This document shows positions 7,175 to 21,343 of a DNA stretch of 22,002 bases, piece after piece. Source of the DNA: a virus; IMG/VR virus record IMGVR_UViG_3300031523_000011, positions 1 through 22,002 of that record; one strand, 5' to 3'. The first letter of the stretch is position 1, and each line of letters opens with the position of its first letter. The notes under the pieces were generated by a model. It saw only the letters and a program-made list of their open reading frames with translations, was not told the DNA's origin and searched no databases. A program made the position numbers and the translations under genes.

Positions 7175-7609
7175 CTATTGATTTAAACGCTCTTTAAGCA
7201 AGTAACCCTCAAGCAACCAGATCTTTTCTCGCGCATTACGAAAAGCAATCTGCCCGCCTAGCTCGGCGTCGAAGTTATCAAGGCTGACGCAGGCACTCTC
7301 GCCGGTAACTGTGAACCCATTTTTCAGAGTTAAGCAGCACACCGTTAGCACACCGTTAAATACATGGTACTGAGCACTTGCGATTCGCTCGTCAATCAGT
7401 CCCGGCGTTAGCCGAGGGGCGGCTAGCCCTTTTTCTTGAATGTTTTTTTCGAGCGCTTGGTCATCTGCGCTGAATGCTACTGCTACTGCTACTGCGCTTT
7501 CATTCATTATTACTTCCTTGGCTTTGCGTTTGGATTTGAAGCGTACACCTTTTTTCTTGCACTTACACTCAGGGTCGCCGGTTTTGATCCAGCAGTCGCC
7601 GCAAATCAC
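7175..7609 (-). CDS. Gp49-like (N4 Gp49 / Sf6 gp66 family) protein
   Basis: 144 aa from a GTG that overlaps the ninG stop (GTGA). Residues about 60-144 match the Gp49/gp66 phage family: APRLTPGLIDERIAS, then LTVCCLTLKNGFTVTGESA, then NAREKIWLLEGYLLKERL at the C-terminus. The function of this widespread family is not known. The first 34 residues are unusual: four Cys (CGDC and CKC) and a basic tail, like a small zinc-binding segment. An in-frame ATG at 7507 has a better ribosome-binding site (AAGGA, 7 nt away) and would give a 110-aa protein of normal family length, so two products or simply the shorter one are possible. It is the last gene of the leftward early operon. Confidence 0.8.
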   Translation of the reverse strand: MICGDCWIKTGDPECKCKKKGVRFKSKRKAKEVIMNESAVAVAVAFSADDQALEKNIQEKGLAAPRLTPGLIDERIASAQYHVFNGVLTVCCLTLKNGFTVTGESACVSLDNFDAELGGQIAFRNAREKIWLLEGYLLKERLNQ

Positions 7610-8939: not shown

Positions 8940-9319
8940 TACTTGCTTCCCTCGTTAATTTGCTCGACGCTAGAAAGAAGGGTAATTATAGGCGCTGTGA
9001 GTACATACTCTTTGCCGTCCACATCACACCAGCTTTTAATGATGTTGCGGTGAGCGCGTAGCTTTCCGTTCTCTAACCTATACCGATCGTTCTCAGCATT
9101 CAACCGCTCGATCTTATGATTACACTGAGCGAGGTTGTGCATTAACTCCTCCTTCTCCCAAGCTGCGTTGACTTTGAGTCTTGCATTCAACCGCTCGATC
9201 TCAACGGCCGCCTCGCGCATTAGATATTTCCCGTTGTACCCGAGATCAGGTATGTCTTTCGGGTATTGACGCAGCGCTTCGACTAGTGTCGCTGTCTTGT
9301 AATCAAAGTCTTTGCGCAT
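8939..9319 (-). CDS. Coiled-coil protein, unknown
   Basis: 126 aa from the ATG at 9319, which has a GGGAG ribosome-binding site 8 nt upstream; a TTG five codons earlier is a weaker alternative. The middle (about residues 40-100) is a Leu/Glu/Lys/Arg-rich coiled coil (EIERLNARLKV, then KIERLNAENDRYRLENGK). The ends look globular. No enzyme motif. It resembles the small helical proteins commonly found in phage early operons. It ends ...GSK at the conserved GCAAGTRATGA junction shared with neighbours. Confidence 0.7.
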   Translation of the reverse strand: MRKDFDYKTATLVEALRQYPKDIPDLGYNGKYLMREAAVEIERLNARLKVNAAWEKEELMHNLAQCNHKIERLNAENDRYRLENGKLRAHRNIIKSWCDVDGKEYVLTAPIITLLSSVEQINEGSK

Positions 9320-10119: not shown

Positions 10120-10601
10120 TTTTGCTCTCCGCATTCGTCTTTGTGTCGCAACATTCCCGCCGATGGTCTGTAATTCAAAGCGGTGACAGCGCTAACCGGC
10201 GATTGATATACATCAGCAAAGTCCTTTGCTTTGAATTCAAGCTCTTTGTGAGTCATCCCGCAAATAACCTTCCATCCGCCAACTTTGTCGATTGCCTCGC
10301 GGATTTCAGGCGTCACTCTTGGCTTGCCGTATGATCCGGTCTTTCGGATCTCTATCATCACGCTAGCCCAGGCGTCAGCGTTTTTCTCCTTGCCGCTGCC
10401 CTCTATGGCCGATATAACCTGAGAAATCTTCGGAAACCACTCGCTTGTTAAAACGTGCGACTTGAACGCTCGCTGAATATCAGCAGGCTCGTACTCACTG
10501 AGCGCATCGTAATAGGCGGAAAGTTGGCCTTTGTTGACATCCACCGAGTACGCATTCCCGGCCTCGGTCATTAGCTGTAAAAAATCCGTTTGACTGATCA
10601 T
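10116..10601 (-). CDS. Replication protein P-like (helicase loader candidate)
   Basis: 161 aa, ATG with a GAGG ribosome-binding site 7 nt upstream. The N-terminal part (FLQLMTEAGNAYSVDVNKG, then YYDALSEYEPADIQRAFKSH, then WFPKISQVISAIEG) follows the layout of small phage replication proteins placed after the O-type initiator, which recruit or load the replicative helicase. There is no Walker motif, so it is not a DnaC-type ATPase. The C-terminal half (about 85-161) is less familiar. The assignment rests on this pattern and on the position directly behind the initiator gene; I would call it P-like rather than a proven lambda P homologue. Confidence 0.65.
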   Translation of the reverse strand: MISQTDFLQLMTEAGNAYSVDVNKGQLSAYYDALSEYEPADIQRAFKSHVLTSEWFPKISQVISAIEGSGKEKNADAWASVMIEIRKTGSYGKPRVTPEIREAIDKVGGWKVICGMTHKELEFKAKDFADVYQSPVSAVTALNYRPSAGMLRHKDECGEQK

Positions 10602-10612
10602 GGTCTTTCCTC

Positions 10613-10626
10613 GGGCATCACTGCCC
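10613..10626 (-). repeat. GNRA hairpin element E1
   Basis: Minus-strand GGGCA-GTGA-TGCCC: a 5-bp stem with a GNRA-type GTGA loop, 10 nt after the stop of the initiator gene. The ribosome-binding site (GAGGA) of the next gene follows the stem directly. It is the only copy found in the leftward operon, and it is in the sense orientation of that transcript. Confidence 0.85.
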
Positions 10627-10636
10627 TGCTGTTTAG

Positions 10637-11446
10637 TTAACCGTTTTTAAGCCAATCAAGCCCGACTTGGATATTCTTGTCGTTCACCGAACCAAAGCCG
10701 CTATCTTGCTTGATCCCAGTCTCCCAGCGCTCGCCAGAAAGCCAGCGTTCAGCGTGAGGCACGAACTTGCCGCCTTCGTCAATGAACACCTTATCCACTT
10801 TTACCCGAAGATCGATGTCGTCAATTACCAATTGGCGTTTGTCATCAGGGACTTTCTTCCACTCAATAAATGCACGCTTTTTGTTACCGCGTCGATCCGA
10901 TGGATAAGCCTGCCAGAATTGCTCAAACTCAATTGAGTAGCCCGCTTTTGCCTTAGCTATCACGGTCGAGACTTCGACAGTGTGTTTTGAACTACTATCT
11001 GTATTTGTATTTGTATCTGTATCTGTATACGTCGATTCTTGTCGACGCTTGTCGACGCTTGTCGACGCGCCTACAACTTTACTACTTGCTCGCTTTACTC
11101 TGGCATACTCAGCTTGATCAGCCTTACGTTGGTCCCTGTTCTGCTGATCTCGGTACTTGGCGTGATTTAGAACTATCCACCCGCCATCAGTCTCCTTGAT
11201 CCTTCGGCCCTCATTATCAGTCGTTCTACTGTACTCGTCGGGCGCTAAAAACATATCCAGCGCCTCCCTAGCCTTGTCAATCGACACCCTGGATAAATGC
11301 GCCAACCCAGGCACCGACGAAGAAACAAATCCATCCTTGTCTTTTAATGACAGCATGGTGATCCAGACCACTCGTATGTCAGACTCTTGGTCCCAGATCG
11401 ACGATCTCGTCAACTCAGAGTCAAGCTTGCTGTATGTAAATGCCAT
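10637..11446 (-). CDS. Phage replication initiator, O-like
   Basis: 269 aa. The N-terminal part (MAFTYSKLDSELTRSSIW through about residue 120) looks like a winged-helix DNA-binding domain: VVWITMLSLKDKDGFV, LAHLSRVSIDKAREAL and DGGWIVLNHAKYRDQQ are typical of phage O-like proteins. A Ser/Thr-rich linker (about 125-155, with TDTDTNTNTD) follows. The C-terminal domain has FEQFWQAYPSDRRGNKKRA, EWKKVP and FVPHAERWLSGERWE, the familiar 'FW..YP...gk..A...W ... f.Ph...WL...rW' signature. It would bind the origin and recruit the P-like protein. The linker-coding DNA carries decamer and hexamer tandem repeats that may be the origin itself. Confidence 0.88.
   Translation of the reverse strand: MAFTYSKLDSELTRSSIWDQESDIRVVWITMLSLKDKDGFVSSSVPGLAHLSRVSIDKAREALDMFLAPDEYSRTTDNEGRRIKETDGGWIVLNHAKYRDQQNRDQRKADQAEYARVKRASSKVVGASTSVDKRRQESTYTDTDTNTNTDSSSKHTVEVSTVIAKAKAGYSIEFEQFWQAYPSDRRGNKKRAFIEWKKVPDDKRQLVIDDIDLRVKVDKVFIDEGGKFVPHAERWLSGERWETGIKQDSGFGSVNDKNIQVGLDWLKNG
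10997..11070. repeat. Candidate replication origin: decamer iterons and hexamer repeats
   Basis: Inside the initiator gene, four tandem 10-bp units run at 11031-11070 (GTCGATTCTT, GTCGACGCTT twice, GTCGACGCGC), each built on the palindrome GTCGAC. Next to them, at 11001-11030, are five 6-bp units of the form GTAT(T/C)T or GTATAC, which are AT-rich. Iterons beside an AT-rich repeat within the initiator's linker codons match the lambda origin plan, although lambda's iterons are longer. The 10-bp spacing puts all units on one face of the helix. Confidence 0.6.
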
Positions 11447-11631
11447 CAGACTTCCATTTTCCTACCAGACAAATACTCATAGACAGCTTTCAGGTTTCTA
11501 AAGCCCGGGTTCGCGCCCGGCTTCATTATCCCGTAAACGCTTCCGAGCGCGATCCCGCAATCTGCCGCGATCCGCTCTTTTGCCAATTCGGTTTTCTTCA
11601 ATAACCGCTGCGTCTTCTCTAAATGATCCAT
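11446..11631 (-). CDS. Small HTH protein (Cro-like regulator)
   Basis: 61 aa, ATG with a GAGG site 8 nt upstream. A helix-turn-helix is visible at about residues 17-45: AKERIAADCGIALGSVYGIM, then a short linker and NLKAVYEYLSG, which resembles XRE/Cro-type folds. It is the first gene of the leftward replication operon, directly behind its promoter, and overlaps the initiator start (TGATG). By analogy with Cro it would repress one or both of the divergent promoters in 11632-11874. No partner CI-type repressor is seen. Confidence 0.75.
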   Translation of the reverse strand: MDHLEKTQRLLKKTELAKERIAADCGIALGSVYGIMKPGANPGFRNLKAVYEYLSGRKMEV

Positions 11632-11660
11632 TCGAATATCCTCACTGATTGATTTAACGC

Positions 11661-11689
11661 ATTGTAATATTATTTTGGGCCATCGTCAA
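11661..11689 (-). promoter_or_regulatory. Leftward early promoter
   Basis: Minus-strand TTGACG (11684-11689), 17-nt spacer, TACAAT (11661-11666). Transcription would start at about 11654, some 22 nt before the HTH gene. The 8-bp palindrome TAATATTA (11665-11672) overlaps the -10 and could be a binding site, though it is short and AT-only. Confidence 0.75.
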
Positions 11690-11718
11690 TCTGTTGCGCT
11701 TATTTATTGCCAAATTAC

Positions 11719-11816
11719 ACTATACATAGCAGTCAGGAAGCGTTGCCGGCCGGAAAGAGTAATTGCCTGGAGCCATAGAGAATCATTTCATTTATTTGTT
11801 ATAGTTACTTGACTAT
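11719..11816. promoter_or_regulatory. Candidate operators in the divergent control region
   Basis: ATAGT-N6-ACTAT (11801-11816) overlaps the -35 of the rightward promoter. A related dyad with ACTAT and ATAG half-sites 2 nt apart lies at 11719-11729. Both could be sites for the small HTH protein. Half-sites are only 4-5 bp, so this is a weak inference. Confidence 0.3.
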
Positions 11817-11836
11817 CAGCTGAAAGCGCGTATATT
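11809..11836 (+). promoter_or_regulatory. Rightward early promoter
   Basis: TTGACT (11809-11814), 16-nt spacer, TATATT (11831-11836). Transcription would start at about 11843. The leader then contains four copies of GCAAC in a short run before the first gene. This single promoter probably drives the whole plus-strand early operon, since I see no other strong promoter or terminator before 20349. Confidence 0.75.
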
Positions 11837-11874
11837 GAACTCATCAAGCAACGCAACGCAACGGGAGCAACATC

Positions 11875-12075
11875 ATGATCAAATCTTTTGAAAACTACAC
11901 AGCAAATGCAATCCAATGGAAAAAGCGCTACGCGGACGGCGAAACGGCTACGGTGGTTGTTGACAATTGCGGCGTGACGCGAGCAATGGTTCGAGAAGCG
12001 TTTGAAGCGCAAGAAGCCGGGTTTGAGATTGCATGTTTTGAAAAGTCTGACATGGGAATGTGGCAAGCCCGATAA
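11875..12075 (+). CDS. Small unknown early protein 1
   Basis: 66 aa, first gene after the rightward promoter, with GGGAG 7 nt before the ATG. The product (starting MIKSFENYTANAIQWKKRY, ending EKSDMGMWQAR) is helical and slightly acidic with two Cys and no recognised motif. First genes behind a strong early promoter often code for host-modifying proteins; that is only context. It is followed by hairpin element E2. Confidence 0.7.
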   Translation: MIKSFENYTANAIQWKKRYADGETATVVVDNCGVTRAMVREAFEAQEAGFEIACFEKSDMGMWQAR

Positions 12076-12080
12076 CAACA

Positions 12081-12094
12081 GGGTCAGGGATGCC
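12081..12094 (+). repeat. GNRA hairpin element E2 (diverged copy)
   Basis: GGGTCAGGGATGCC: stem GG/CC and CA/TG with a bulged T and a GGGA loop, still of GNRA type. It starts 5 nt after the stop codon, and the ribosome-binding site AAGGAG of the next gene follows closely. The flank AACAACA is shared with E4. Confidence 0.65.
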
Positions 12095-12110
12095 GAAGGA
12101 GAAGAGTAAC

Positions 12111-12269
12111 ATGGTAACGCTACAATATTTTAATGGCATAGAGTGGGTTGAGTGGGGCAAGTTCGGCCACGACAGAATGGCTTGGATTAGCTTAGGTGGT
12201 GATGACTTTAACTATCGAACAATTGACAGTGGCGGAAATGTCGTCACTGACAAATCAATACAAGCATAG
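12111..12269 (+). CDS. Small unknown early protein 2
   Basis: 52 aa, ATG with AGGAG about 9 nt upstream. The sequence is rich in Trp, Gly and Asp (YFNGIEWVEWGKFGHDRMAW) and looks like a small beta-sheet protein. No family recognised. It is flanked on both sides by hairpin elements (E2 before, E3 after). Longer forms starting upstream would run through E2 and lack a ribosome-binding site. Confidence 0.65.
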   Translation: MVTLQYFNGIEWVEWGKFGHDRMAWISLGGDDFNYRTIDSGGNVVTDKSIQA

Positions 12270-12275
12270 CAACGG

Positions 12276-12289
12276 GGGCAGTGATGCCC
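12276..12289 (+). repeat. GNRA hairpin element E3
   Basis: GGGCAGTGATGCCC, a perfect copy, 6 nt after the stop codon of the preceding gene and followed directly by the GAGGATAA ribosome-binding site of the next. Confidence 0.9.
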
Positions 12290-12302
12290 GAGGATAATTG
12301 AA

Positions 12303-12506
12303 GTGACAGCAGACTTAAAAGTAAATAGATATACCCTAAGCAATCGGCTCCGCGGAGTTTATGAAGTAGGCCCGAATGTCTATACAACAGCACCTTTTGC
12401 GGCTTTCATCCCGCCAATTTGCATCGAAGCAGCCGACAAGATTGATTTGTTGATAAGCGAATGTGCTGCACTAAAAATTAAAATTGCAAAATTAGAAGCT
12501 ATCTAA
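12303..12506 (+). CDS. Small unknown early protein 3
   Basis: 67 aa from a GTG start with GAGGA about 9 nt upstream; there is no ATG early in this frame. The N-terminal half (LKVNRYTLSNRLRGVYEVGP) looks like a short beta domain, and the C-terminal half is a helix likely to form a coiled coil (IDLLISECAALKIKIAKLEA). No family recognised. Flanked by hairpin elements E3 and E4. Confidence 0.6.
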   Translation: MTADLKVNRYTLSNRLRGVYEVGPNVYTTAPFAAFIPPICIEAADKIDLLISECAALKIKIAKLEAI

Positions 12507-12512
12507 CAACAG

Positions 12513-12526
12513 GGGCAGTGATGCTC
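12513..12526 (+). repeat. GNRA hairpin element E4
   Basis: GGGCAGTGATGCTC: the base change in the right arm turns a G-C pair into G-U, so the 5-bp stem is kept. It starts 6 nt after the stop codon and is followed by AAAGGATAA, the next ribosome-binding site. Confidence 0.85.
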
Positions 12527-12539
12527 AAAGGATAAAGCG

Positions 12540-12848
12540 ATGGCACTTAAATACATAAAAAGCTATTACGGCATCAGCGCCAGCATTGGTCAGCGTGTGA
12601 AGGTCGATGGCAAGCCCGGAATTATAGTGGCAGATCAAGGCCACCATCTGGGCGTTAATTTTGACGAAGACAAACCAGGAGCTGTAAGCAACTGCCACCC
12701 AACGTGGCGCGTCGATTATCTTGAAATGGGGGCGATCAGAAAGCAGACAAAGGCGCAGGCGCGTTACCAACATTATTTAGAAGTGGGCGACCAGTTTGAT
12801 AGTTTCCTGCACTTTTTGCAGGCCAACGTCAAACCCTCGCAAGCATAG
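12540..12848 (+). CDS. Unknown phage protein with SH3-like N-terminal segment
   Basis: 102 aa, ATG with AAGGA 7 nt upstream. The N-terminal 60 residues (IGQRVKVDGKPGIIVADQGH, then LGVNFDEDKPG and CHPTWRVDYLEMG) resemble a small beta-barrel segment I have seen in many phage early genes ('G..V.vdGkpG.i......l.v.fD......HPtW...Y'). The C-terminal 35 residues (ARYQHYLEVGDQFDSFLHFL) are helical. Function unknown. It is the last small gene before the recombination cassette and is followed by hairpin E5. Confidence 0.7.
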   Translation: MALKYIKSYYGISASIGQRVKVDGKPGIIVADQGHHLGVNFDEDKPGAVSNCHPTWRVDYLEMGAIRKQTKAQARYQHYLEVGDQFDSFLHFLQANVKPSQA

Positions 12849-12853
12849 CAACA

Positions 12854-12867
12854 GGGCAGTGATGCCC
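12854..12867 (+). repeat. GNRA hairpin element E5
   Basis: GGGCAGTGATGCCC, perfect, 5 nt after the stop codon. Unlike E1-E4 it is separated from the next start (the annealing protein) by 38 nt, an AC-rich stretch with its own AAAGGA ribosome-binding site. Confidence 0.9.
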
Positions 12868-12905
12868 ATAAATAAACACAGCACACCACAGCAAAGGACG
12901 GATAA

Positions 12906-13673
12906 ATGAGCGGAAAACTTGCAACAGTTCAGGATCAACAAACTTCTTTGATTGCTACATTTGGCAATCGTTACGGGGTCAACGAAAACAAAGTGCTCCA
13001 AACCTTGAAGGCAACAGCGTTCAAGCAGAGCGGCGGGAAAGATGTTAGCAACGAGCAGATGATTAGCCTTCTCGTTGTTGCGAACGAGTACAACCTCAAC
13101 CCTTTTACAAAGGAAATATACGCTTTTTCGTCAAATGGCGGAATCACTCCAATCGTCAGTATAGATGGATGGATGAAAATCGTTAACGCGCACCCAGACA
13201 TGGACGGGATGGAATTTAGCGACAATATTGTTGATAACAAGTTGGTTTCAATTACTTGCTCAATATTTCGAAAGGGCCGGTCGCACCCGACAACGGTTAC
13301 CGAATATTTGGAAGAGTGTAAAAAATCGACGGACCCATGGAAAAAATGGCCTGCGCGAATGTTGCGGCACAAAGCTGCTATCCAGTGTGCTCGCTACGCT
13401 TTTTCACTTTCGGGAATCTCCGATCCAGACGAAGCCGACCGTATTCAAGAGAGCATCAAAGTAGTCGACGACGAGTCTGTTGTAATTGATTGCGTAGATG
13501 TTGAGACAGCAAATTACCCTGAACAAAAATTCAACGACAACTATCCAGCATGGAAGGCCGCAATTGAATCGGGAAAGCTAACTCCGGGCGCGATCATTGC
13601 AAAGTTAGAAACAATCGGGCCGATCACTGACGGGCAAAGGAAATCCATTCACAGCATAGAGGCGAGATCATGA
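12906..13673 (+). CDS. bet: Single-strand annealing recombinase, Bet/RecT family
   Basis: 255 aa. It coats and anneals complementary single strands exposed by the neighbouring exonuclease. Family signature is clear: LNPFTKEIYAFSSNGGITPI, IVSIDGWMKIVNAHPD, ITCSIFRKGRSHPTTVTEYL and PWKKWPARMLRHKAAIQCAR followed by YAFSLSGISDPDEADRI, which matches the lambda Bet group more closely than E. coli RecT. The C-terminal 60 residues vary, as usual. The stop overlaps the exonuclease start (ATGA), so both are probably made together. Start ATG with AAAGGACGG upstream. Length is normal (lambda Bet is about 260 aa). Confidence 0.95.
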   Translation: MSGKLATVQDQQTSLIATFGNRYGVNENKVLQTLKATAFKQSGGKDVSNEQMISLLVVANEYNLNPFTKEIYAFSSNGGITPIVSIDGWMKIVNAHPDMDGMEFSDNIVDNKLVSITCSIFRKGRSHPTTVTEYLEECKKSTDPWKKWPARMLRHKAAIQCARYAFSLSGISDPDEADRIQESIKVVDDESVVIDCVDVETANYPEQKFNDNYPAWKAAIESGKLTPGAIIAKLETIGPITDGQRKSIHSIEARS

Positions 13674-15271
13674 GTGAAGCGATTACGCACACGGAAAAGC
13701 AAGGTTCAGCCGAGTGGCTTTCGCTGCGACAGAAGTTCAACACGGCATCAGAGGCCAGCGCAATGATGGGCGTTGACAAGCACACGACGAGAGACGAATT
13801 GCTTGCGCTGAAGGCTGGCGGACCTGCAAAAGAGTTTAGCGATTACACAAAAAACGTTGTTTTTCCGAGGGGTCATGAAGTTGAAGCCCTAGCCAGGCCG
13901 ATCGCGGAGACGGTGATAGGCGGCGAGCTTTACCCTGTCGTCATGAGCAGGAACGGCTTGCTTGCTAGTTGTGACGGGATTGTGATGCTGGAGGACGTTG
14001 CTTGGGAGCACAAACAATGGAGCGAGTCGCTAGCCGATTCCATCTTGAACTTTGGAATACCAGATTCTCATATTTGGCAACTCGTTCAAATTTGCTATGT
14101 CACCGACTGCGAAAAGATTTTATTTACTGTTTCCGATGGCACGGATGAAAATCTTGTAAATTGCTGGTATGACGCGAACGCGGACGACAGGCGCAAACTC
14201 CTTGCAGGGTGGGAACAGTTCGACAAGGACGTCGCTAATTACGTGCACGCGGCGCCAGCGCCAAAACCTGTAGCTGACAGCATCGATTCACTGCCGGCGC
14301 TTAATATTAGAATTACCGGAGAAGTCGCTGAGTCTAATCTAGCAGCTTACCGCGATCGGGCTATGCAGATCATTAGCGCGATCAATACGAACTTGATAAC
14401 CGATCAGCATTTTGTGGACGCCGAAGCTGCGGTTAAATGGTGCGCCAGCGCTGAAAGCAAGGTTGAATCAATCAAAGAGCAGGCGTTATGTCAGACACGA
14501 AGTATCGACGAACTTTTTAAAGCAATGGACGAGATCAAGGAAACGCTGCGTCAAAAGCGGTTATCGCTAGACAAGTTGGTCAAGACGGAAAAAGAAAGCC
14601 GAAAGCGCGAGATGATTAAAGCTGCAGAGGGCAATTTGTGCGACGAGATTCACATCGCAAACGAAGCTCTGAGCCCTGTTCGCGTCAATGTCTGCGCTGA
14701 CTTTGCTTCTGCGATCAAGGGCAAGCGCACTATTGAGTCACAACAAAACCAAATCAACACGGAGCTCGCCAGGGCCAAGATTGAGATAACTTGCCAGGCT
14801 CGCGAGATTACAAGCCGCCTTGAAGTTATCAAGAATTTTGAGGCGTACGATTTCCTGTTTCGCGATCTTCAGCATCTTGTAAGTCTTGAAGAAGACAATT
14901 TACTACTTGTCGCGACTGTGCGAGTCGAGGGCTACGAGCAAAAAGAAAAGGCAAGGCGTGTGGCAAAAGAAGCCGCCGAAGTTGCGGAAAAGTTACGAAT
15001 TGAAACAGCGATGGCCGCAAAGCTGGAGGCCGAAACGCCGCCATCTGCGAGCCTTCAATACGACTCAAAGATATCAACGGTAGTGTCAACAATAGCGCAG
15101 TGGGCAGAGCCAGCGGCAATGACGATTCAGCCGAGCAAACTTATCATAATCACATATAAGAACATGAAGTCAGGACCGAAATTACTGGAAATAATGGACG
15201 CGGAAGGCAACGAACTTTCGATAGAAGCAACCGGCGACGGTCAAATCAAAACTATTACAATAGAGGTGTAG
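13670..15271 (+). CDS. YqaJ-type exonuclease with long C-terminal helical extension
   Basis: 533 aa. The first 200 residues are a lambda-exonuclease/YqaJ-like PD-(D/E)XK nuclease: [20 protein letters not shown] (substrate-binding part), GHEVE (E70 or E72), the catalytic Asp in SCDGIV (D102) and E-x-K in WEHKQ (E113, K115). It would resect double-strand ends 5'-3' and hand the single strand to the annealing protein encoded just upstream. Residues about 205-470 form an extended helical/coiled-coil region ([36 protein letters not shown]), and the last 50 residues form a small beta domain. The extension at least doubles the size of a simple YqaJ nuclease and is seen in some other phages; its role is unknown. 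Confidence 0.88.
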
Positions 15272-15275
15272 AAAA

Positions 15276-15710
15276 ATGGCACGAGGAATCAACAAAGTAA
15301 TTTTAGTCGGCAATCTTGGCAATGATCCAGAGACGCGCAGCATGCCTAACGGCGGGAGCGTTGCAAATATCAGTATCGCGACCAGTGAGTCCTGGAAGGA
15401 CAAGACTACGGGTGACCAGCAGGAACGTACAGAATGGCACAAGGTCGTTTTTTTTGGAAAGCTTGCTGAGATTGTCGCCCAATACCTGAAGAAAGGTTCC
15501 AGCGTCTACGTTGAAGGCTCCTTACGCACAAATCAATGGGAGAAAGATGGGCAAAAGCACTATTCCACAGAAGTTATTGCCAGCGAGATGCAAATGTTAG
15601 GCGGTCGCGGCGATGGCGACAACGGCGGCGGTGGTCAGAGCAACTCAGGCGGCAATAGAGGCGGATCTGCGCAGCCGATTGACGACTTTGATCAGTCGAT
15701 TCCATTCTAG
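15276..15710 (+). CDS. ssb: Single-stranded DNA-binding protein
   Basis: 144 aa. It has the OB-fold of bacterial [60 protein letters not shown], and [20 protein letters not shown] Gly/Asn-rich linker follows (about 108-132), then the acidic tail DDFDQSIPF, the docking peptide by which SSB recruits partner proteins. It protects single-stranded intermediates in replication and recombination, and NinB and RdgC are likely functional neighbours. Five nucleotides separate it from the exonuclease gene. The intact tail indicates a fully functional protein. Confidence 0.97.
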
Positions 15711-15743
15711 CCGTTACTTTTACGCAGTAAATCAAAGGCAAGA

Positions 15744-16190
15744 ATGATGCAATCTAAAAAATGCTTTAAATGTGGGGCTGAAAAGCCCCTAGAGGAATTT
15801 TACAGGCATCCGATAATGGCCGATGGCCGTGTCAACAAATGCAAACTGTGCAATAAATTCGACGTTACAGCCAATCGCGTCAAAAATATTGAGCATTACA
15901 GGCTCTATGATCGCAGTAGAGGGGGCAGGTGGTCGCCGGGATATTCGCGGGCTTGGCGGGAAAAGAACCCGCAAAAGTATAAAGCTCAAAGCATGGTAAA
16001 CAACTCAATCCGAGACAAAAAGCTATCTCGACAGCCGTGCGAAGTTTGCGGAACTGATAAGAGCATTCACGGTCATCACGACGATTACCTGAAACCGCTA
16101 GACGTTCGATGGCTGTGCGCGGTCCATCACAGCCAATGGCACAAAGAAAACGGCGAAGGGCTAAATGGATCAGTCAACGCTAAAACATAA
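15744..16190 (+). CDS. HNH-like zinc protein
   Basis: 148 aa. Two Cys4-type zinc sites are visible: CFKCGAEKPLEEF with CKLC (residues about 7-37), and CEVCGTDKSIHGHHDDYLKP with LCAVHHSQWHKENG (about 98-138). The second resembles an HNH endonuclease (C..C ... HGHHDDY ... H..WH), with the paired His that would form the beta-beta-alpha metal site. It may be a free-standing phage HNH nuclease or a structural DNA-binding relative. It has its own AAAGG ribosome-binding site. Whether it cuts DNA, and where, cannot be told; it sits between the recombination genes ssb and rdgC. Confidence 0.75.
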   Translation: MMQSKKCFKCGAEKPLEEFYRHPIMADGRVNKCKLCNKFDVTANRVKNIEHYRLYDRSRGGRWSPGYSRAWREKNPQKYKAQSMVNNSIRDKKLSRQPCEVCGTDKSIHGHHDDYLKPLDVRWLCAVHHSQWHKENGEGLNGSVNAKT

Positions 16191-16220
16191 ATCAACCCAA
16201 TTAAATTAAGAGAAGATATC

Positions 16221-17171
16221 ATGAAATTTAAAGCAGCACGGATTTACACGCTAAAGCAACCGCTTGACCTTTCTACTTTTGACGAAGACCTGGCGAAGCT
16301 GGCGTTTGTCCCATGCTCTGGTTTGCGGGCCGAATCAGCTGGGTGGGTTGCGCCTTTCGACGGCGCCCCGGGACTTTTCCGCGACGCCCGGGAAGCGATT
16401 GCGCTGAAGCTGAGAAAGCAGAAAAAGGCAATCCCGGCGTCGGCGCTTGCTGACGCGCTGAAAGAAAAAGTCGACAAGCACACGGAATTATTTGGTTCAG
16501 CGCCAAGCGTCAAAGTCAAGCGAGATCTAAAAGACGACTGCATTGCAGAAATGACGCCGGATGCATTGCCCGTCACAGCCTCAATTGACATGCTGATCTT
16601 CGATAAATTTATCTGCATCGGTACGTCGTCGGCGGCTGACGCTGAACTAGCTCTGACGACGTTACGCTCGACGCTTGGGACTTTGCCCGTCCTGCCGCTT
16701 GCGTCTTGTAACGAGCCAAAAGAGGCGTTCACAGAATGGCTTTCTGATTATGCATCCCCAGAAGGTACTTTTTTGGGATGCAATTTTGATCTGATTGACT
16801 CTCAGCACGGATCGAAGGCGAAGTTTCGATCCGTGGAGCCAAGCGAGGATGTAACTGGATTAATTCGCGACGGCATGAGCTGCACGAAAATCCAACTTTC
16901 GACGCAAGACCTGCATTTTTCAGTAGATAACAACCTGGCATTTTCTTCGATCATCGATCGTCGAGAGATAAGCGACGAAATCGATGCAGAGGAGGATCCT
17001 GATGCGCGCTACGACGCCGATGTGATTCTAGCTGCGGACATGCTGCGGTTGCTCATAAATACGACCATCACTGCCCTAGGCGGTTCTCCTGAATCGACAG
17101 AAAAAGAGCTGCTTGCGCCGCCATTTCACTCAAACTGCCCGTTGATTTATTTATTTGATTTAATTGATTGA
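16221..17171 (+). CDS. rdgC: RdgC-like recombination-associated protein
   Basis: 316 aa, close to the 303 aa of E. coli RdgC. RdgC forms a ring on double-stranded DNA and limits RecA access. Visible family features: a start of the form MKFKAARIYTLKQPLDL, CSGLRAESAGWVAPF near residues 33-47, LRKQKKAIPASALADALKEK, and the C-terminal SCTKIQLSTQDLHFSVDNNL. The sequence is otherwise diverged from the E. coli protein, as phage copies usually are. It sits in the same operon as the annealing protein, exonuclease and SSB, so it probably controls RecA during phage recombination. The start ATG has a modest AGAGAAG upstream. Confidence 0.88.
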   Translation: MKFKAARIYTLKQPLDLSTFDEDLAKLAFVPCSGLRAESAGWVAPFDGAPGLFRDAREAIALKLRKQKKAIPASALADALKEKVDKHTELFGSAPSVKVKRDLKDDCIAEMTPDALPVTASIDMLIFDKFICIGTSSAADAELALTTLRSTLGTLPVLPLASCNEPKEAFTEWLSDYASPEGTFLGCNFDLIDSQHGSKAKFRSVEPSEDVTGLIRDGMSCTKIQLSTQDLHFSVDNNLAFSSIIDRREISDEIDAEEDPDARYDADVILAADMLRLLINTTITALGGSPESTEKELLAPPFHSNCPLIYLFDLID

Positions 17172-17227
17172 TGTATCAGATAGGATTTAGTAATATTAAT
17201 TACATCAACAACGAAGCAGGAATAGAA

Positions 17228-17470
17228 ATGATTGACGCAGTAGATTTGACAGGAACACAAGAGTATTTGAATAAAGACGGCATGCTGTGTGAAAAGAGTT
17301 ATCGCCTGATGAAACGCTATGCCCAAGGACATGACGAGTTCATAACTTGCATGGTCATAGACAGGCTGCCAGCCAGCGCCGCACGAATGACTTTTGACCG
17401 GGAAGCGCAACACTGCAGCATGAGAGACGAAGTTTGGCTAGAGTTGGATTGCAGCTACACAGTCAACTAG
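17228..17470 (+). CDS. Small unknown early protein
   Basis: 80 aa. I chose the ATG at 17228 because AGGA lies 6 nt upstream; an ATG at 17171 and a TTG at 17168 in the same frame have no ribosome-binding site. The product (MIDAVDLTGTQEYLNKDGML at the start) is mostly helical then beta-like, with five Cys and no CxxC pair, and ends WLELDCSYTVN. No recognised family. It lies between rdgC and the pentapeptide-repeat gene. Confidence 0.65.
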   Translation: MIDAVDLTGTQEYLNKDGMLCEKSYRLMKRYAQGHDEFITCMVIDRLPASAARMTFDREAQHCSMRDEVWLELDCSYTVN

Positions 17471-17510
17471 GCATCTAAAACATGACAATAACGCGCAGCG
17501 AGGCAAAGAA

Positions 17511-18206
17511 ATGAAAAAAATAACACAATCTGAATTTGAAGAAAAAGTCAAGCTGCACAGACTGTGGCGTGAGGACCATAGCGATGGCGTCAGGTTAGTT
17601 TTGACCGGCTGCATTTTGACCGGCATCGATTTTAGCGGCTGCAACTTTCGCGGCAGCGACTTGAGCTACTGCAACTTGCTCCACTGCGACTTGCGCAACA
17701 GTGACATGCGCCACTGCAACTTGAGCTACGGCAACTTGCGCCACTGCGACTTGCGCAACAGTGACATGCGCAACTGCAACTTGAGCTACTGCAACTTGAG
17801 CGGCAGTGACATGCGAGGCAGTGACTTGAGCGACAGCGACTTGACGGGTTGCAACTTGGATGGCTGCGACTTGACCGACGCAATCATTCCTTCGCCAGCG
17901 GCGCCTATTGCAACTCCAAAAGGCCCGCAGACCCGCCAAGGTATTTTAGACACAGCCCGAAGCCACGTCAGCAAGGATCGTGAGTCTACAAGCGAGTCGC
18001 CGGAGGATAGTTTCGGCGTCATTGCAGAATATTGGGAAACCCATCTGGGCCACCCAGTCAAAGCCACGGACGTGGCAATAATGATGGCATTGCTAAAGGT
18101 CGCAAGGCTGCGTACCACGCCTACCAGCCTTGACAGTTGGGTTGATTTGGCGGGTTACGCAGCTTGCGGTGGTGAGATCGCGATGAAGGACAAGACTGAT
18201 GCATAG
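17511..18206 (+). CDS. Pentapeptide-repeat protein fused to DUF6378 domain
   Basis: 231 aa, ATG with GAGG upstream. After a 30-residue helical start, about 18 pentapeptide repeats run from near residue 31 to 125, of the form (S/N/C)(D/N)(L/M/F)xx, as in GSDLSYCNLLHCDLRNSDM. Such repeats build a right-handed beta-helix; in MfpA/Qnr proteins this shape mimics DNA and binds gyrase, but many other functions exist. A short linker leads to a C-terminal domain (about 155-225): GVIAEYWETHLGHPVKATDV, then MALLKVARL and DLAGYAACGGE, which matches the phage domain DUF6378. I have not commonly seen this pairing. The repeats are unusually rich in Cys, which alternate with Ser at the same position. Confidence 0.85.
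   Translation: MKKITQSEFEEKVKLHRLWREDHSDGVRLVLTGCILTGIDFSGCNFRGSDLSYCNLLHCDLRNSDMRHCNLSYGNLRHCDLRNSDMRNCNLSYCNLSGSDMRGSDLSDSDLTGCNLDGCDLTDAIIPSPAAPIATPKGPQTRQGILDTARSHVSKDRESTSESPEDSFGVIAEYWETHLGHPVKATDVAIMMALLKVARLRTTPTSLDSWVDLAGYAACGGEIAMKDKTDA
17661..17840 (+). repeat. 60-bp tandem repeats encoding whole beta-helix turns
   Basis: Three 60-bp units begin at 17661, 17721 and 17781, and each starts TTGAGCTAC. Units 1 and 2 differ at 3 of 60 positions; unit 3 is more diverged after its first 20 bp. One unit codes four pentapeptides, that is one full coil of the beta-helix, so the array looks like a recent duplication of one structural turn. Confidence 0.8.
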
Positions 18207-18417
18207 GCTTATAGTAAGAAACGCCCTGGGCGAGCAAATTGGAATTAAGAAGATCGACATTGCCAAGATTTCGTCAGCTTTTGCGATGAGAACCGCGCAG
18301 CTCCGAGACGAAGCGCAAAAAATTGTCAAAAATATTAAGACTGAATCGGCAGAAAAAGATTTTCGGTGGGTACTAATAAGCCATTCAAACCGAGCAATTT
18401 CAGAGGGGAAGTTATGA
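18199..18417 (+). CDS. Small unknown early protein
   Basis: 72 aa. It starts with an ATG overlapping the end of the pentapeptide gene by 8 nt, with GGA 8 nt upstream. The product is basic and helical (IGIKKIDIAKISSAFAMRTA, then AQKIVKNIKTE), ending WVLISHSNRAISEGKL. No Cys, membrane segment or recognised family. The end overlaps the next gene's start (4 nt), and this overlap style continues through the following genes. Confidence 0.6.
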   Translation: MHRLIVRNALGEQIGIKKIDIAKISSAFAMRTAQLRDEAQKIVKNIKTESAEKDFRWVLISHSNRAISEGKL

Positions 18418-18665
18418 AGCCAATTATTTATGTAAGCATCGACGCCAGCGGCGGCATTGCCGCGATGCAAGTTGCACACCCGACAAGCCCGCCGGCAGAC
18501 GGACTCGCTTGGATCACATACGCACCCGCGAGCTCGAATCTCGCCGGTGCGTTGGAGGAAAACAAAAAGCTGGAAGCCCGAAACAGCCAGCTTCGCAAAG
18601 AAGTTCGCCACCACGATACGCGGGCCGCAATGCGGGCTCAAGAGCGATCTGAGGGAATGCCGTGA
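18414..18665 (+). CDS. Small unknown early protein
   Basis: 83 aa, ATG with a strong GAGGGGAAG site. The N-terminal half is beta-like (MKPIIYVSIDASGGIAAMQV), the C-terminal half a charged helix (LEENKKLEARNSQLRKEVRH) that could form a coiled coil. No family recognised. Confidence 0.6.
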   Translation: MKPIIYVSIDASGGIAAMQVAHPTSPPADGLAWITYAPASSNLAGALEENKKLEARNSQLRKEVRHHDTRAAMRAQERSEGMP

Positions 18666-18883
18666 TGAATAAATCCTGCTTGTTTTGTAAAAAAGAGCTA
18701 GTTCGACGCACGATAGCAGCCGGCAGGCTAGAAAACGTAACGCAGTATCGGCGCAGAAAGTATTGCAACAAAAAATGCATTGCAGCGCTTAAAAAGACGG
18801 GCGTTGTGACTTCGCCCACATACGCAAGCGATCATGTGCCCTTTGTAAAAATGGCACGCAAGCTTTGGAGATTACCGGCATGA
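18665..18883 (+). CDS. Small four-Cys zinc-finger-like protein
   Basis: 72 aa from the ATG at 18665 (TGATG overlap with the preceding stop); a GTG one codon earlier is also possible and better spaced from GAGGG. Two Cys pairs, CLFCKKEL near the N-terminus and YCNKKCIAAL around residues 32-37, separated by a basic stretch (RRTIAAGRLENVTQYRRRKY), look like a small zinc finger. The basic charge suggests nucleic-acid binding. Exact family unknown. It overlaps the next gene by 4 nt (ATGA). Confidence 0.65.
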   Translation: MNKSCLFCKKELVRRTIAAGRLENVTQYRRRKYCNKKCIAALKKTGVVTSPTYASDHVPFVKMARKLWRLPA

Positions 18884-19044
18884 CTGAATTTATGAGCATG
18901 GCTGAGGCAATGGCTGAAATCGAGCGTTTGAATGCAAGACTAGAGATTTTGCAAGATGCTGCAGACAACGGCGTGCTAGTAACACGCGCTGAGACCGAGC
19001 AGACGGACGACGTAATTCATGACGCTCTTTGGGGGTGCAAGTGA
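18880..19044 (+). CDS. Small unknown early protein
   Basis: 54 aa. ATG overlaps the preceding stop (ATGA); the product has an N-terminal helix of coiled-coil type (MAEAMAEIERLNARLEILQD) and an acidic end (TEQTDDVIHDALWGCK). It ends at a GCAAGTGATGA junction like those in the leftward operon. No family recognised. It is the first of four consecutive small genes with heptad-type helices. Confidence 0.55.
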   Translation: MTEFMSMAEAMAEIERLNARLEILQDAADNGVLVTRAETEQTDDVIHDALWGCK

Positions 19045-19193
19045 TGAATGAATTAATATGTAGTTGCGGCGCTACGTGCTCTGAAGTTGAGAGACTAGAA
19101 GCAGATTTGAAGCTAAGTCAGGAAGAGGTAGTTTATCTTCGCAAGCGCTTGAATATTGACGTGTACGGCAACCCATTGGCGGTAGAGCTATGA
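19044..19193 (+). CDS. Small Cys-containing coiled-coil protein
   Basis: 49 aa, ATG at 19044 overlapping the preceding stop (TGATG) with GGGGG and GCAAG upstream. The N-terminal CSCGATC has three Cys close together, followed by a heptad-type helix (VERLEADLKLSQEEVVYLRK). No recognised family. Its stop overlaps the next ATG (ATGA). Confidence 0.55.
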   Translation: MNELICSCGATCSEVERLEADLKLSQEEVVYLRKRLNIDVYGNPLAVEL

Positions 19194-19492
19194 GCATTAA
19201 AAAGTATGAACTTTACGTTGACAATTATCAAGATGACAACGGCGACGACTGCAGCAATGTCGAGCACATCGGCGACGACAAAGGCGATTGGTGCAAAGCC
19301 AGCGACGTTGAAGAGCTGCAAGCCAGTCATGCGGCTGAGATTAGGCTGGTGCGATCAGCCAGCGAGCGGCTTTTTCGAGACAATAAAAAACTGCAAGCTG
19401 ACTTGTACATTCTTGCAACAACTCGTGCAACTCTGTCCGACGAAAACGAAAAGTTGCGCAATTTAATCAAAGACTTGGAGCAAAAGTCATGA
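19190..19492 (+). CDS. Small acidic coiled-coil protein
   Basis: 100 aa. The N-terminal 40 residues are acidic, with a cluster of Asp (YELYVDNYQDDNGDDCSNVE), followed by a long helix with heptad pattern (EELQASHAAEIRLVRSASER, then NEKLRNLIKDLEQ). ATGA overlap with the preceding gene. No enzyme motif. An acidic surface patch is common in phage proteins that bind host DNA-binding partners, but that is speculation here. Confidence 0.6.
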   Translation: MSIKKYELYVDNYQDDNGDDCSNVEHIGDDKGDWCKASDVEELQASHAAEIRLVRSASERLFRDNKKLQADLYILATTRATLSDENEKLRNLIKDLEQKS

Positions 19493-19668
19493 TTGAAAGC
19501 ATTGCGGCAATCGAGCAGAAAATCAGCGAGTCAGACAAGATCTCCAAAGAAATCGATGAATTTTTAGCGAAAGGCCTGGAAATTACCGGCGTCGATTTTG
19601 GTGCCGGGCAAAGCAGCGATAAGCCTTGGGGCGATTATCAATCTAAGACTGAAAAAGAGGCAAGTTGA
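19489..19668 (+). CDS. Small unknown early protein
   Basis: 59 aa, ATGA overlap with the preceding gene. Helical first half (MIESIAAIEQKISESDKISK), then a short polar segment (TGVDFGAGQSSDKPWGDYQS). It ends EKEAS, whose codons contain the GAGGCAAG ribosome-binding site of the next gene. No recognised family. Confidence 0.55.
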   Translation: MIESIAAIEQKISESDKISKEIDEFLAKGLEITGVDFGAGQSSDKPWGDYQSKTEKEAS

Positions 19669-19669
19669 A

Positions 19670-19819
19670 ATGAAAATAACAAACGAAAACGGCCTTTACG
19701 TAGCGACATTTAGGCACAGAAGCGGCGAGATCTGCATGGGGTTCGCCCCTTCATGGATTGAAGCTGTTAACTACTGCCTGGAGCGGTTTAAAGAGCGTAA
19801 CGCCAAAGGACTAAGCTAA
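19670..19819 (+). CDS. Small unknown early protein
   Basis: 49 aa, ATG with GAGGCAAG upstream. It reads MKITNENGLYVATFRHRSGE followed by a helix (SWIEAVNYCLERFKERNA), a small beta-beta-beta-alpha arrangement that recalls DNA-interacting domains such as AP2 or Arc-like folds, but too short for a firm call. Its stop overlaps the start of the AP2 plus HTH gene (TAATG), so the two are probably made together. Confidence 0.55.
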   Translation: MKITNENGLYVATFRHRSGEICMGFAPSWIEAVNYCLERFKERNAKGLS

Positions 19820-20349
19820 TGCGCAAGATTAAATCGCCGTATCACATAGATCTAGACCTTGCAGACTCTCCTGAACCTGCATATCAGGCAGCGGGGGCTA
19901 GGAGCAAAACTGGCGTAAAAGGCGTTTCCATTTGCAAAAATGGAAAATACAGAGCATCTTTAACAGTGAGTGGCGCTCGTAAGTCGCTCGGATACTTTTC
20001 ATCTTTGCCGGAAGCCGCTGACGCTGTTAAGCACGCTGAAGCTTTTTATGGACCCTCATCAGGCAAACTTGTTCGAGTAGCTGTAAGCGTTCACCCAGAC
20101 CACATTCAAGCTCTACAGCAGCACGTTAAGCTAAATCTGCAGGAGCCGTTTACGCCAGATCCGCGATCAAGATTTACAGCCGACGAAATTTCGAGCATAC
20201 AACGGCTGTCCAGGAGCCGACAAAAAAAGCAAGTAGAGATTGCAGCAATGTATAACTGCGGCCAAGGCACAATATCCAAAATAATAAGAAGCGGATGTTC
20301 AACGGGGAAAAAGCGCGCCGAACAATCCTTGACTTTTTTGCGGATTTAA
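19819..20349 (+). CDS. AP2-like plus HTH DNA-binding protein
   Basis: 176 aa. Residues about 28-78 form an AP2/integrase-arm-like three-stranded DNA-binding domain: SKTGVKGVSICKNGKYRASL, then KSLGYFSSLPEAADAVKHAE. In phages AP2 domains usually come with an HNH nuclease; no HNH is visible here. Instead, residues about 116-158 look like a helix-turn-helix: FTADEISSIQRLS followed by QVEIAAMYNCGQGTISKIIR. The combination suggests a sequence-specific regulator or a degenerate homing-type DNA-binding protein. As the last gene of the rightward early operon it is a candidate late regulator, but nothing in the sequence shows its target. Confidence 0.75.
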   Translation: MRKIKSPYHIDLDLADSPEPAYQAAGARSKTGVKGVSICKNGKYRASLTVSGARKSLGYFSSLPEAADAVKHAEAFYGPSSGKLVRVAVSVHPDHIQALQQHVKLNLQEPFTPDPRSRFTADEISSIQRLSRSRQKKQVEIAAMYNCGQGTISKIIRSGCSTGKKRAEQSLTFLRI

Positions 20350-20360
20350 AATTAGGCAAA

Positions 20361-20374
20361 GGGCAGTGATGCCC
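20361..20374 (+). repeat. GNRA hairpin element E6
   Basis: GGGCAGTGATGCCC, perfect, 11 nt after the last gene of the rightward operon. Here no gene follows on the same strand, so it is the only copy not placed before a ribosome-binding site. It lies in the gap between converging operons and could also help stop transcription, but no T-run follows it on the plus strand. Confidence 0.85.
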
Positions 20375-20385
20375 CATACCTACCT

Positions 20386-20907
20386 TTAGTTATCTTTCAT
20401 CCCGTCTTTTGTTTTACTGCCAAGAGATGAACCAAAATGAAAGCTTGTAACCTGTTGGCGCTCGGTAATTAGCGCGCCTATAAAAACGCCAATCAGGTTG
20501 CTTACTACTGCAAGCAATGCCCCTAGCTCGCTCATGAAATACGCTGCCAGCAAATTCACCACAGTCATAAGCGCGATAATTGGCAAATTCCAAACCATTA
20601 TGCGCCACGCAATCTTATCGGCCATTTTGTGTGAAGTTTTGTATTGCTCACTGGCGCGTTGCCGCGACTGCTCGTCTAATCTTTCAAGCACGGTCTCGCT
20701 TTCCATAACCGCCATTTCAAACTTAAAAGCTAATTGCGGGTCAAGCATAAGCTTTGCAGTCGACTCGTCAATGCTCTTGCTATCTGTCACTGACTGCGCG
20801 ATCTCGGCAATTGTGCTGCCGATCTTATCGGCTTTGCTGTCGTCGTCGCCAAACAAGCTGATGATTTTTGGGGCGAATTGTAATAATGCTAATATTGCTG
20901 GAGCCAT
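20386..20907 (-). CDS. Holin-like protein (3-TM type)
   Basis: 173 aa from the ATG at 20907, one base after the endolysin stop. A hydrophobic N-terminal helix (MAPAILALLQFAPKIISLFG) is followed by a charged helical middle and two strong membrane segments near the C-terminus (IMVWNLPIIALMTVVNLLAA and a second, ALLAVVSNLIGVFIGALI). The segment KIAWRIMVWNLPI and the tail GSSLGSK resemble the phage 3TM holin family, in which the protein forms holes that release endolysin or depolarise the membrane. The order holin after endolysin is less usual but known. Extensions upstream of 20907 overlap the endolysin gene and are not needed. Confidence 0.75.
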   Translation of the reverse strand: MAPAILALLQFAPKIISLFGDDDSKADKIGSTIAEIAQSVTDSKSIDESTAKLMLDPQLAFKFEMAVMESETVLERLDEQSRQRASEQYKTSHKMADKIAWRIMVWNLPIIALMTVVNLLAAYFMSELGALLAVVSNLIGVFIGALITERQQVTSFHFGSSLGSKTKDGMKDN

Positions 20908-20908
20908 T

Positions 20909-21343
20909 TTATTTACCCACAATCGTGATCTTGTTTTCATAATTAGCACAAGCTATGTGCAGCCAACTTACGTCTTTTTCAATAACGACAGAATGCGGCA
21001 ACTCAGCACCGCCGTTAATTATATCATTCCGCACCTGGTCTGCAGTCACGTCTCTAAATATCATATCAAGCGCATTACCAAAAGTGTGTTGACTGTAGGG
21101 GCGGAACCACCTTGATTCAGGCGTGCGTATTCCGCACCACTCTCTTAGCTTGTAAACCTCGATGACCGAATCCCCGAGCCCGTAGGTGTTTATAAATGCT
21201 GGCCCGTAAGTCTCCCGCAGTAGATCCGCTAATTCTAAAACCTTGGGGTTTAGGAGGTGCAGCGCCTTCTCTCCCCGTTCCGCGAACATTTGCGGCGGCA
21301 CTAGCTCGTGAGCTGCAAAATATTTTGGCTTGTATTGAAGCAT
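20909..21343 (-). CDS. Endolysin, peptidase M15 type
   Basis: 144 aa from the ATG at 21343; a TTG three codons upstream is possible and neither has a strong ribosome-binding site, so translation is probably coupled to the preceding gene. The metal-binding signature of M15-type peptidases is clear: SQHTFGNALD (H86 and D93, the HxxxxxxD motif) and SWLHI (H129). This family cuts peptide cross-links in peptidoglycan (D-Ala-D-Ala or L-Ala-D-Glu bonds). No signal peptide is visible, so export would depend on the holin encoded next. Length is usual for a single-domain phage lysozyme of this class. Confidence 0.85.
   Translation of the reverse strand: MLQYKPKYFAAHELVPPQMFAERGEKALHLLNPKVLELADLLRETYGPAFINTYGLGDSVIEVYKLREWCGIRTPESRWFRPYSQHTFGNALDMIFRDVTADQVRNDIINGGAELPHSVVIEKDVSWLHIACANYENKITIVGK

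Follow-up and report, generated by a model that had tools for sequence, protein, structure and literature searches.

Our analysis of the complete virus record IMGVR_UViG_3300031523_000011 (22,002 bases; this whole stretch is called the window here) showed that one short intercistronic sequence is repeated six times in it, behind stop codons and in the sense orientation. The same sequence recurs in further phage records, five in all with the window, and it or a related hairpin coincides with breaks in homology in three comparisons. We tentatively favour the possibility that this element is an intercistronic expression linker which doubles as a short-homology joint. Both its effect on expression and its part in the exchanges as a cause, not a passenger, are what we infer from the letters of these records.

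The first-pass annotation of the window had described a six-copy repeat, and this was borne out: four copies are exact (GGGCAGTGATGCCC), one has a single mismatch, and one is weak. When up to three mismatches were allowed, seven matches were found in the window against a shuffle mean of 1.56, a number reached in 0 of 100 shuffles. The seventh match, at 17063 on the minus strand, is antisense within the gene at 16221-17171 and looks like chance. One exact copy (10613..10626) is on the minus strand, after the replication initiator gene (10637-11446, minus strand), with a GAGGA Shine-Dalgarno sequence directly 3′ of it and the next ATG at 10601. The remaining five are on the plus strand. The weakest, TAACAACAGGGTCAGGGATGCC followed by GAAGGAG (12073..12110), stands before the ATG at 12111, and its core, placed at 12081-12094, has three mismatches in the register 12082-12095. 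Next comes TAGCAACGG with an exact core (12276-12289) and GAGGA (12267..12302), before the GTG at 12303. The one-mismatch copy consists of TAACAACAG, GGGCAGTGATGCTC (12513-12526) and AAAGGA (12504..12539), before the ATG at 12540. The copy before the RecT/Bet-like gene consists of TAGCAACA and an exact core at 12854-12867 (12846..12905 with its surroundings), and its Shine-Dalgarno sequence, AAAGGA, is about 35 nucleotides (nt) further on. The last exact core (20361..20374) lies 11 nt after the stop of an HNH-like gene (19819-20349, plus strand); no family-supported gene follows it on the same strand, and the open reading frame (ORF) 20386-20949 points toward it.

The gaps from stop to stem, taken from ORF ends and flanks, were 10, 5, 6, 6, 5, and 11 nt, which agrees with the 5-11 nt reported before. 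All six copies are in the sense orientation, and a ribosome-binding site of the GAGGA or AAGGA type is directly 3′ of the stem in four of the six, also as reported. The distances from core to start codon in the five copies that precede genes were 11, 16, 13, 13, and 38 nt. The sequence on the 5′ side of the stem is TARCAACA(G) in 4/6 window copies; the 10613 copy has AACAGCA there, and the 20361 copy GGCAAA. A search for exact 12-mers present in at least three post-stop segments of one source picked out the window only. It covered 63 sources and 1459 segments (the window, 55 RecT-related phage loci, and 7 loci with the linker hairpin or a related hairpin); the segments came from simple greedy ORF calling, and the exact criterion is strict, missing the contigs L188 and L321 with three diverged copies each. 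Ahead of the first gene to run rightward, 27 nt at 11843-11869 resemble the linker region at 12254-12280 (74%), and are possibly a decayed linker copy or a product of chance.

The repeated unit exceeds the hairpin. It consists of CAACA and GGGCAGTGATGCC(C), usually with the Shine-Dalgarno sequence next, and comes to about 20-25 nt. We have identified this linker in four further metagenomic contigs, L180 (two copies), L188 (three), L192 (two), and L321 (three), all from datasets 3300047666/3300047667 and with mostly unrelated genes. These contigs came from flank-including pattern scans of IMG/VR; one such scan gave 88 stretches, and the flanks were inspected for 79 of these and for L198. A covariance model trained on 15 of the 16 copies scored the 16 at 26.1-43.0 bits, against at most 14.3 bits in the 55 RecT-related loci, and L321:854, which was outside the training set, scored 30.6 bits. 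Under the same model L242 scored 26.8 bits and L345 22.8 bits, and the two are possible distant members of the linker family.

Across the five records the linker is in the sense orientation of its flanking ORFs in 16/16 copies. Five of the ten copies outside the window stand 5-20 nt past a gene stop. In three others (L180:2940, L188:1905, L321:1126) the last codons of the upstream gene enter the linker, and the TGA stop lies in the loop. The idea that the 5′ half is more conserved than the 3′ half was dropped, because half-matches with at most one mismatch were nearly equal in number at the elements (8 against 7, and each half matched once elsewhere) and the search patterns had fixed the 5′ half.

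Homology breaks at the element in three comparisons, twice at the linker and once at a related hairpin. The window and L180 share a block of DNA homology with 291 identities in 372 columns (78%), which begins at 12506, with ACAACAGGGGCAGTGATGC in the 12513 copy, and runs to 12865, with CAACAGGGCAGTGATGC in the 12854 copy. The gene inside this block (12540..12848, plus strand; phrog_16342/2730, function unassigned) sits between two linker copies; it matches L180 at 84% of amino acids over 95 residues, and its L180 relative likewise lies between two copies. Outside the block the window has an orphan 67-amino-acid gene and RecT as neighbours, and L180 has genes for a DUF7446 protein and a DNA helicase. 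Among L180, L188, L192, and L321, the DNA matches at E ≤0.1 were the linker and two short others (28 and 23 bases).

The second comparison is within L321, where a gene of 78 amino acids (890-1126) lies between two linker copies and is flanked by a direct repeat that matches the beginning of the thyX gene (assigned by PF02511) lying downstream. The repeat, whose two copies bracket the unit within 810-1177, is 42 nt long with 34/42 identical positions, and no other place in the contig exceeds 24/42. This suggests that a linker-gene-linker unit may have been inserted at the thyX start as a single-gene cassette. In the third comparison, L242 and L359 are 93% identical outside a region in which one contig has three ORFs and the other a single ORF instead; on the right, this replacement has its edge at a related hairpin with a GCAA loop (L242 4585, L359 691). 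The right edge between L242 and L362 (3487) is identical to this one, these contigs being 91-93% identical, and L242 carries two identical 35-nt copies of the related hairpin ahead of successive genes. A mobile recombination boundary had been one of several options proposed for the repeat, and it has the best comparative support (window/L180, L321, L242/L359). These coincidences were tallied at linker or hairpin junctions only. Small genes at 7175-7609 and 9173-9319 of the window are also common with L188 (66% of amino acids) and L321 (78% of DNA over 139 bases); they have no adjoining linker, and the remaining contig is mostly unrelated.

A role in expression of the next gene is suggested by the placement between stop and Shine-Dalgarno sequence, the single orientation, and the different genes downstream, and a use as short homology by the coincidence with edges of gene swaps. 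The linker would separate small early genes and set up translation of the next one. Its unpaired A/C-rich stretch and small hairpin may shield the ribosome-binding site downstream from the coding sequence ahead of the linker; alternatively, they may be the target of a factor from the phage or its host. Present at many junctions in the phages of one community, it would offer short homology for the exchange of genes one by one. Such exchange was possibly aided by the RecT/RecE-type enzymes of the phage itself; the RecT/Bet-like annealing protein and RecE-like exonuclease encoded in the window (12906..15271, plus strand) could be a recombination system able to act on short homologies. The broader proposal, that one linker common to otherwise unrelated phages of the community is both an early-gene expression signal and a docking homology by which genes are gained, lost, and traded, seems to us rather unlikely. 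If it is true, the linker would be what the joint between gene cassettes is elsewhere, but in a phage and with no site-specific recombinase dedicated to it.

Several observations weigh against the favoured combination of expression linker and joint. A linker conserved everywhere would mimic a seam without causing any exchange, which is a serious caveat. The search patterns fixed parts of the linker, so that conservation of those parts in the relatives is biased. At L188:1395 and L321:865 the distance back to a called stop is 41 and 52 nt, and at L188:1638 a Shine-Dalgarno sequence distinct from the element is missing. No stem is present in 2/16 copies, L188:1638 (L188b) and L321:1118 (L321a), and the core-pair probability in context, above 0.6 in 9/16 copies, is below 0.6 in the other 7/16. 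Accessibility of the Shine-Dalgarno sequence in the predicted folds is uneven, from 0.08 to 0.93, and leaves insulation unsupported.

It could also be that the element has no role in expression at all and is repeated solely via its short homology, which permits exchange or duplication of small genes. This would account for the seams at the element in the three comparisons and for the decay of copies to half-elements such as L188:1638 and L321:1118. A neutral seam, however, should not show such regular placement between stop and Shine-Dalgarno sequence or 16/16 copies in sense, and we regard this explanation as improbable. As a part of the combined reading, the use of the element as a seam is the most interesting and testable point, and the reading of the element as a hairpin is secondary.

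That secondary reading holds that a stem-loop serves mRNA processing, 3′-end protection, or protein binding, and that the repeats exist for the sake of the structure. Its account of a repeated intercistronic element, fixed in orientation between stops and ribosome-binding sites, stands, but structure conservation as the defining feature does not. In 15 aligned copies from the five records, the five stem pairs were formed in 83.8% of cells, as compared with 84.0% when the 3′ letters were shuffled, and no two-sided compensatory change was found. Shifting the partner column by 1-3 lowered pairing to 20-58%, as is expected of a sequence that is palindromic by coincidence. The outer pair is unformed in 5 of the 14 rows with letters, and a scan of the window against Rfam 15 at gathering thresholds gave 0 matches.

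The single copies are equally uneven. The exact copies have a predicted fold of −7.7 kcal/mol, with core-pair probabilities in context of 0.85 at 10613, 0.96 at 12276, and 1.00 at both 12854 and 20361. The 12513 copy was said to keep its stem through a G-U pair; the stem is possible (−4.7 kcal/mol), but its core-pair probability in context is 0.08. The 12081 copy, described as a bulged GNRA stem, folds poorly into another shape (−0.6 kcal/mol) with a stem-pair probability of 0.00 in context. Because 12081 barely folds and 12513 is rarely paired in context, the statement of the first-pass annotation that variants keep the structure was too strong. It had also held that pairing-breaking changes in relatives, or copies in both orientations and inside genes, would speak against a functional hairpin. 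Such changes were found in some relatives, with the stems lost in L188:1638 and L321:1118, which weakens a purely structural claim; no copy of the 16 is antisense or inside a gene interior, and 3/16 overlap the end of the upstream gene.

Some features do fit an RNA structure. The loop is of GNRA type, the orientation is fixed, and G-U or U-G pairs are retained at 12513, L192a, and L192b. L188a (L188:1395) retains a GGC/GCC stem despite another loop (probability 0.93), and L321b (L321:2019) a GGGC/GCCC stem despite another loop. Hairpins with the core also precede Shine-Dalgarno sites in many phage contigs: a flank-free scan found GGGCA-GNRA-TGCCC cores ahead of AAGGA in at least 120 stretches, and related hairpins elsewhere have a GGGGCA-GNRA-TGCCCC core followed by AAGGA and a start codon. 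Flanking pairs around the core were complementary above shuffles, namely pairs 1-2 in 48 matches covered by open frames (0/1000 shuffles) and pair 2 in the 28 remaining matches (4/1000 shuffles), the split being a crude one by any open frame of at least 150 nt. Compared with the window linker, GNRA-loop hairpins in other phage contigs mostly occur as a single copy and have longer stems, and the CAACA flank is seen in 0/28 of a set that excludes loci such as L242, L281, and L283, which carry it. Since the same core precedes Shine-Dalgarno sites so widely, the hairpin core alone is ordinary; the unusual feature is that it recurs beside a fixed flank, within one genome as well as among phages. 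With the close family showing pairing equal to shuffles and its stem lost in L188b and L321a, we consider that structure is rather unlikely to be what the repeats exist for. The intergenic leaders of L300, L301, and L304 are of a different type, ACAACAGGGGCATAGTTGCCC with a non-GNRA loop, before AAAGGA and ATG.

The near-palindrome GGGCA-N4-TGCCC might instead be bound as DNA by a dimeric repressor, in the manner of L5-type stoperators, as a site in early operons. It has a perfect 5-bp dyad, and its copies lie in two operons that flank a predicted divergent promoter region. However, a palindrome bound as DNA needs no single orientation, no fixed loop, and no placement after stops; half-copies without the dyad persist, and the relatives place the element in DNA-polymerase, thyX, and lysis/terminase regions. 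This makes a DNA-binding site very unlikely.

Translation of the next gene could be coupled to that of short leader peptides which begin at an ATG within the hairpin (AGGG...ATG). Such a frame is present in 5/5 window copies that precede genes, ending at most 4 nt from the next start in four and entering the next gene in frame at 12081, and the gene at L188:1638 starts directly after GGGCAGTGAT. Short spacers favour near coincidences of this kind, though. L188a and L321b have no ATG at the corresponding place, and in L180a, L180b, L188c, L192a, and L192b a distance of 7 to 50 nt separates the end of the frame from the start. We therefore give little credence to such mini-cistrons.

Its position between genes would also suit the hairpin to act as a weak intrinsic terminator or a nut-like antitermination site, and with a stem of five pairs and a loop of GNRA type the element resembles lambda boxB. 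But the sense copies have no T tract behind them, and a terminator scan flagged only 10613 among the copies, on the antisense strand, with 9 sites in total against a shuffle mean of 13.3. The 5-11 nt that separate the stem from the stop contain, by eye, no boxA-like sequence. Terminators or nut sites are the explanation to which we attach the least probability.

Our searches elsewhere for relatives of the linker gave negative results. The exact 14-mer was found in at least 119 stretches of viral contigs, which were rejected as relatives after inspection of their flanks by eye (mostly gene interiors or terminators); apart from the window's own pieces, no locus among the matches listed had more than one exact copy. 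None of the 55 RecT-related loci, the nearest (L125) included, had a comparable repeat. A 34-nt consensus query did not find the element in 50,697 records of cultured phages, a search that would miss diverged forms; five records at E 1-4, all at hypothetical protein features, were not relatives. In bacterial genomes a 19-mer gave two single matches (Microvirga and Bradyrhizobium) and thus no host repeat at that stringency, which again would miss diverged forms. Aeromonas phage PhAER-1, which matches the L180 gene at 61% of amino acids, has no element at the corresponding junction. The covariance model had no match at E up to 10 in phage loci of Vibrio, Tetrasphaera, and Pseudomonas, and RecE in plasmids provided no useful context.

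As for the other genes of the window, the left end carries head, portal, and terminase genes on the minus strand, and a rightward set from 12906 comprises RecT, RecE, and SSB. The orphan 67-amino-acid gene (12303-12506, plus strand) lies between the 12276 and 12513 copies and had no match among the cultured phages searched. Direct repeats of TGTAT(C/T) and GTCGACGCTT units inside the replication initiator gene (11001-11070) are possibly origin iterons. The stretch at 17511-18206 encodes a pentapeptide-repeat protein joined to a DUF6378 domain.

The origin of the seams between genes in mosaic phage genomes is a long-standing question. One view invokes illegitimate recombination followed by selection, and the other exchange at short common boundary sequences, which, according to PMC3029335, cannot be identified at most boundaries. 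The linker makes the latter view directly testable, because it is a defined sequence at several junctions, recurs in other phages, and coincides with edges of replacement and insertion.

Our literature searches found nothing on intercistronic hairpins in phage translation or on GNRA tetraloops at phage intergenic Shine-Dalgarno sites. The closest system is the start-associated sequence (SAS) of the cluster K mycobacteriophages, which two papers (Pope et al. 2011, PMC3203893; PMC12699233) describe as a 13-bp sequence with the consensus GGGATAGGAGCCC and unproven function. It contains the Shine-Dalgarno sequence and itself lies typically 3-7 bp from the start, and a related extended SAS is a 17-bp inverted repeat (PMC3203893; PMC12699233). 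As far as these descriptions go, the window element resembles SAS in being short (14 against 13 bp) with GGG...CCC ends and an asymmetric middle. Both are almost always in one orientation and belong to non-structural genes, the window copies being outside the head, portal, and terminase genes. Both stand near translation starts before different gene families, with the upstream stop sometimes inside the repeat. In contrast, GGGCAGTGATGCCC compared by eye does not fit GGGATAGGAGCCC with up to two deviations, the Shine-Dalgarno sequence in the window is 3′ of the repeat with the start 11-38 nt away, whereas SAS occupies the ribosome-binding site, and the CAACA flank of the linker has no equivalent in SAS as described. 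The window element is thus not a member of SAS, having another sequence and its Shine-Dalgarno site outside. In a wider sense, environmental phages whose relatives are gammaproteobacteria-like would join the cluster K mycobacteriophages of these descriptions as carriers of the unexplained phenomenon.

The second comparison is with the short conserved boundary sequences that have been proposed for mosaic phage genomes, as cited in PMC3029335. Like these, the element is a short common sequence at gene junctions where blocks of homology end, and block edges were found at the linker in window/L180 and in L321, and at the related hairpin in L242/L359 and L242/L362. It differs in that here one recurring sequence, set between stop and ribosome-binding site, occupies several junctions of one genome and is found in other phages as well. 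By analogy with both systems, the element appears to be an SAS-like linker and a boundary sequence in a new form.

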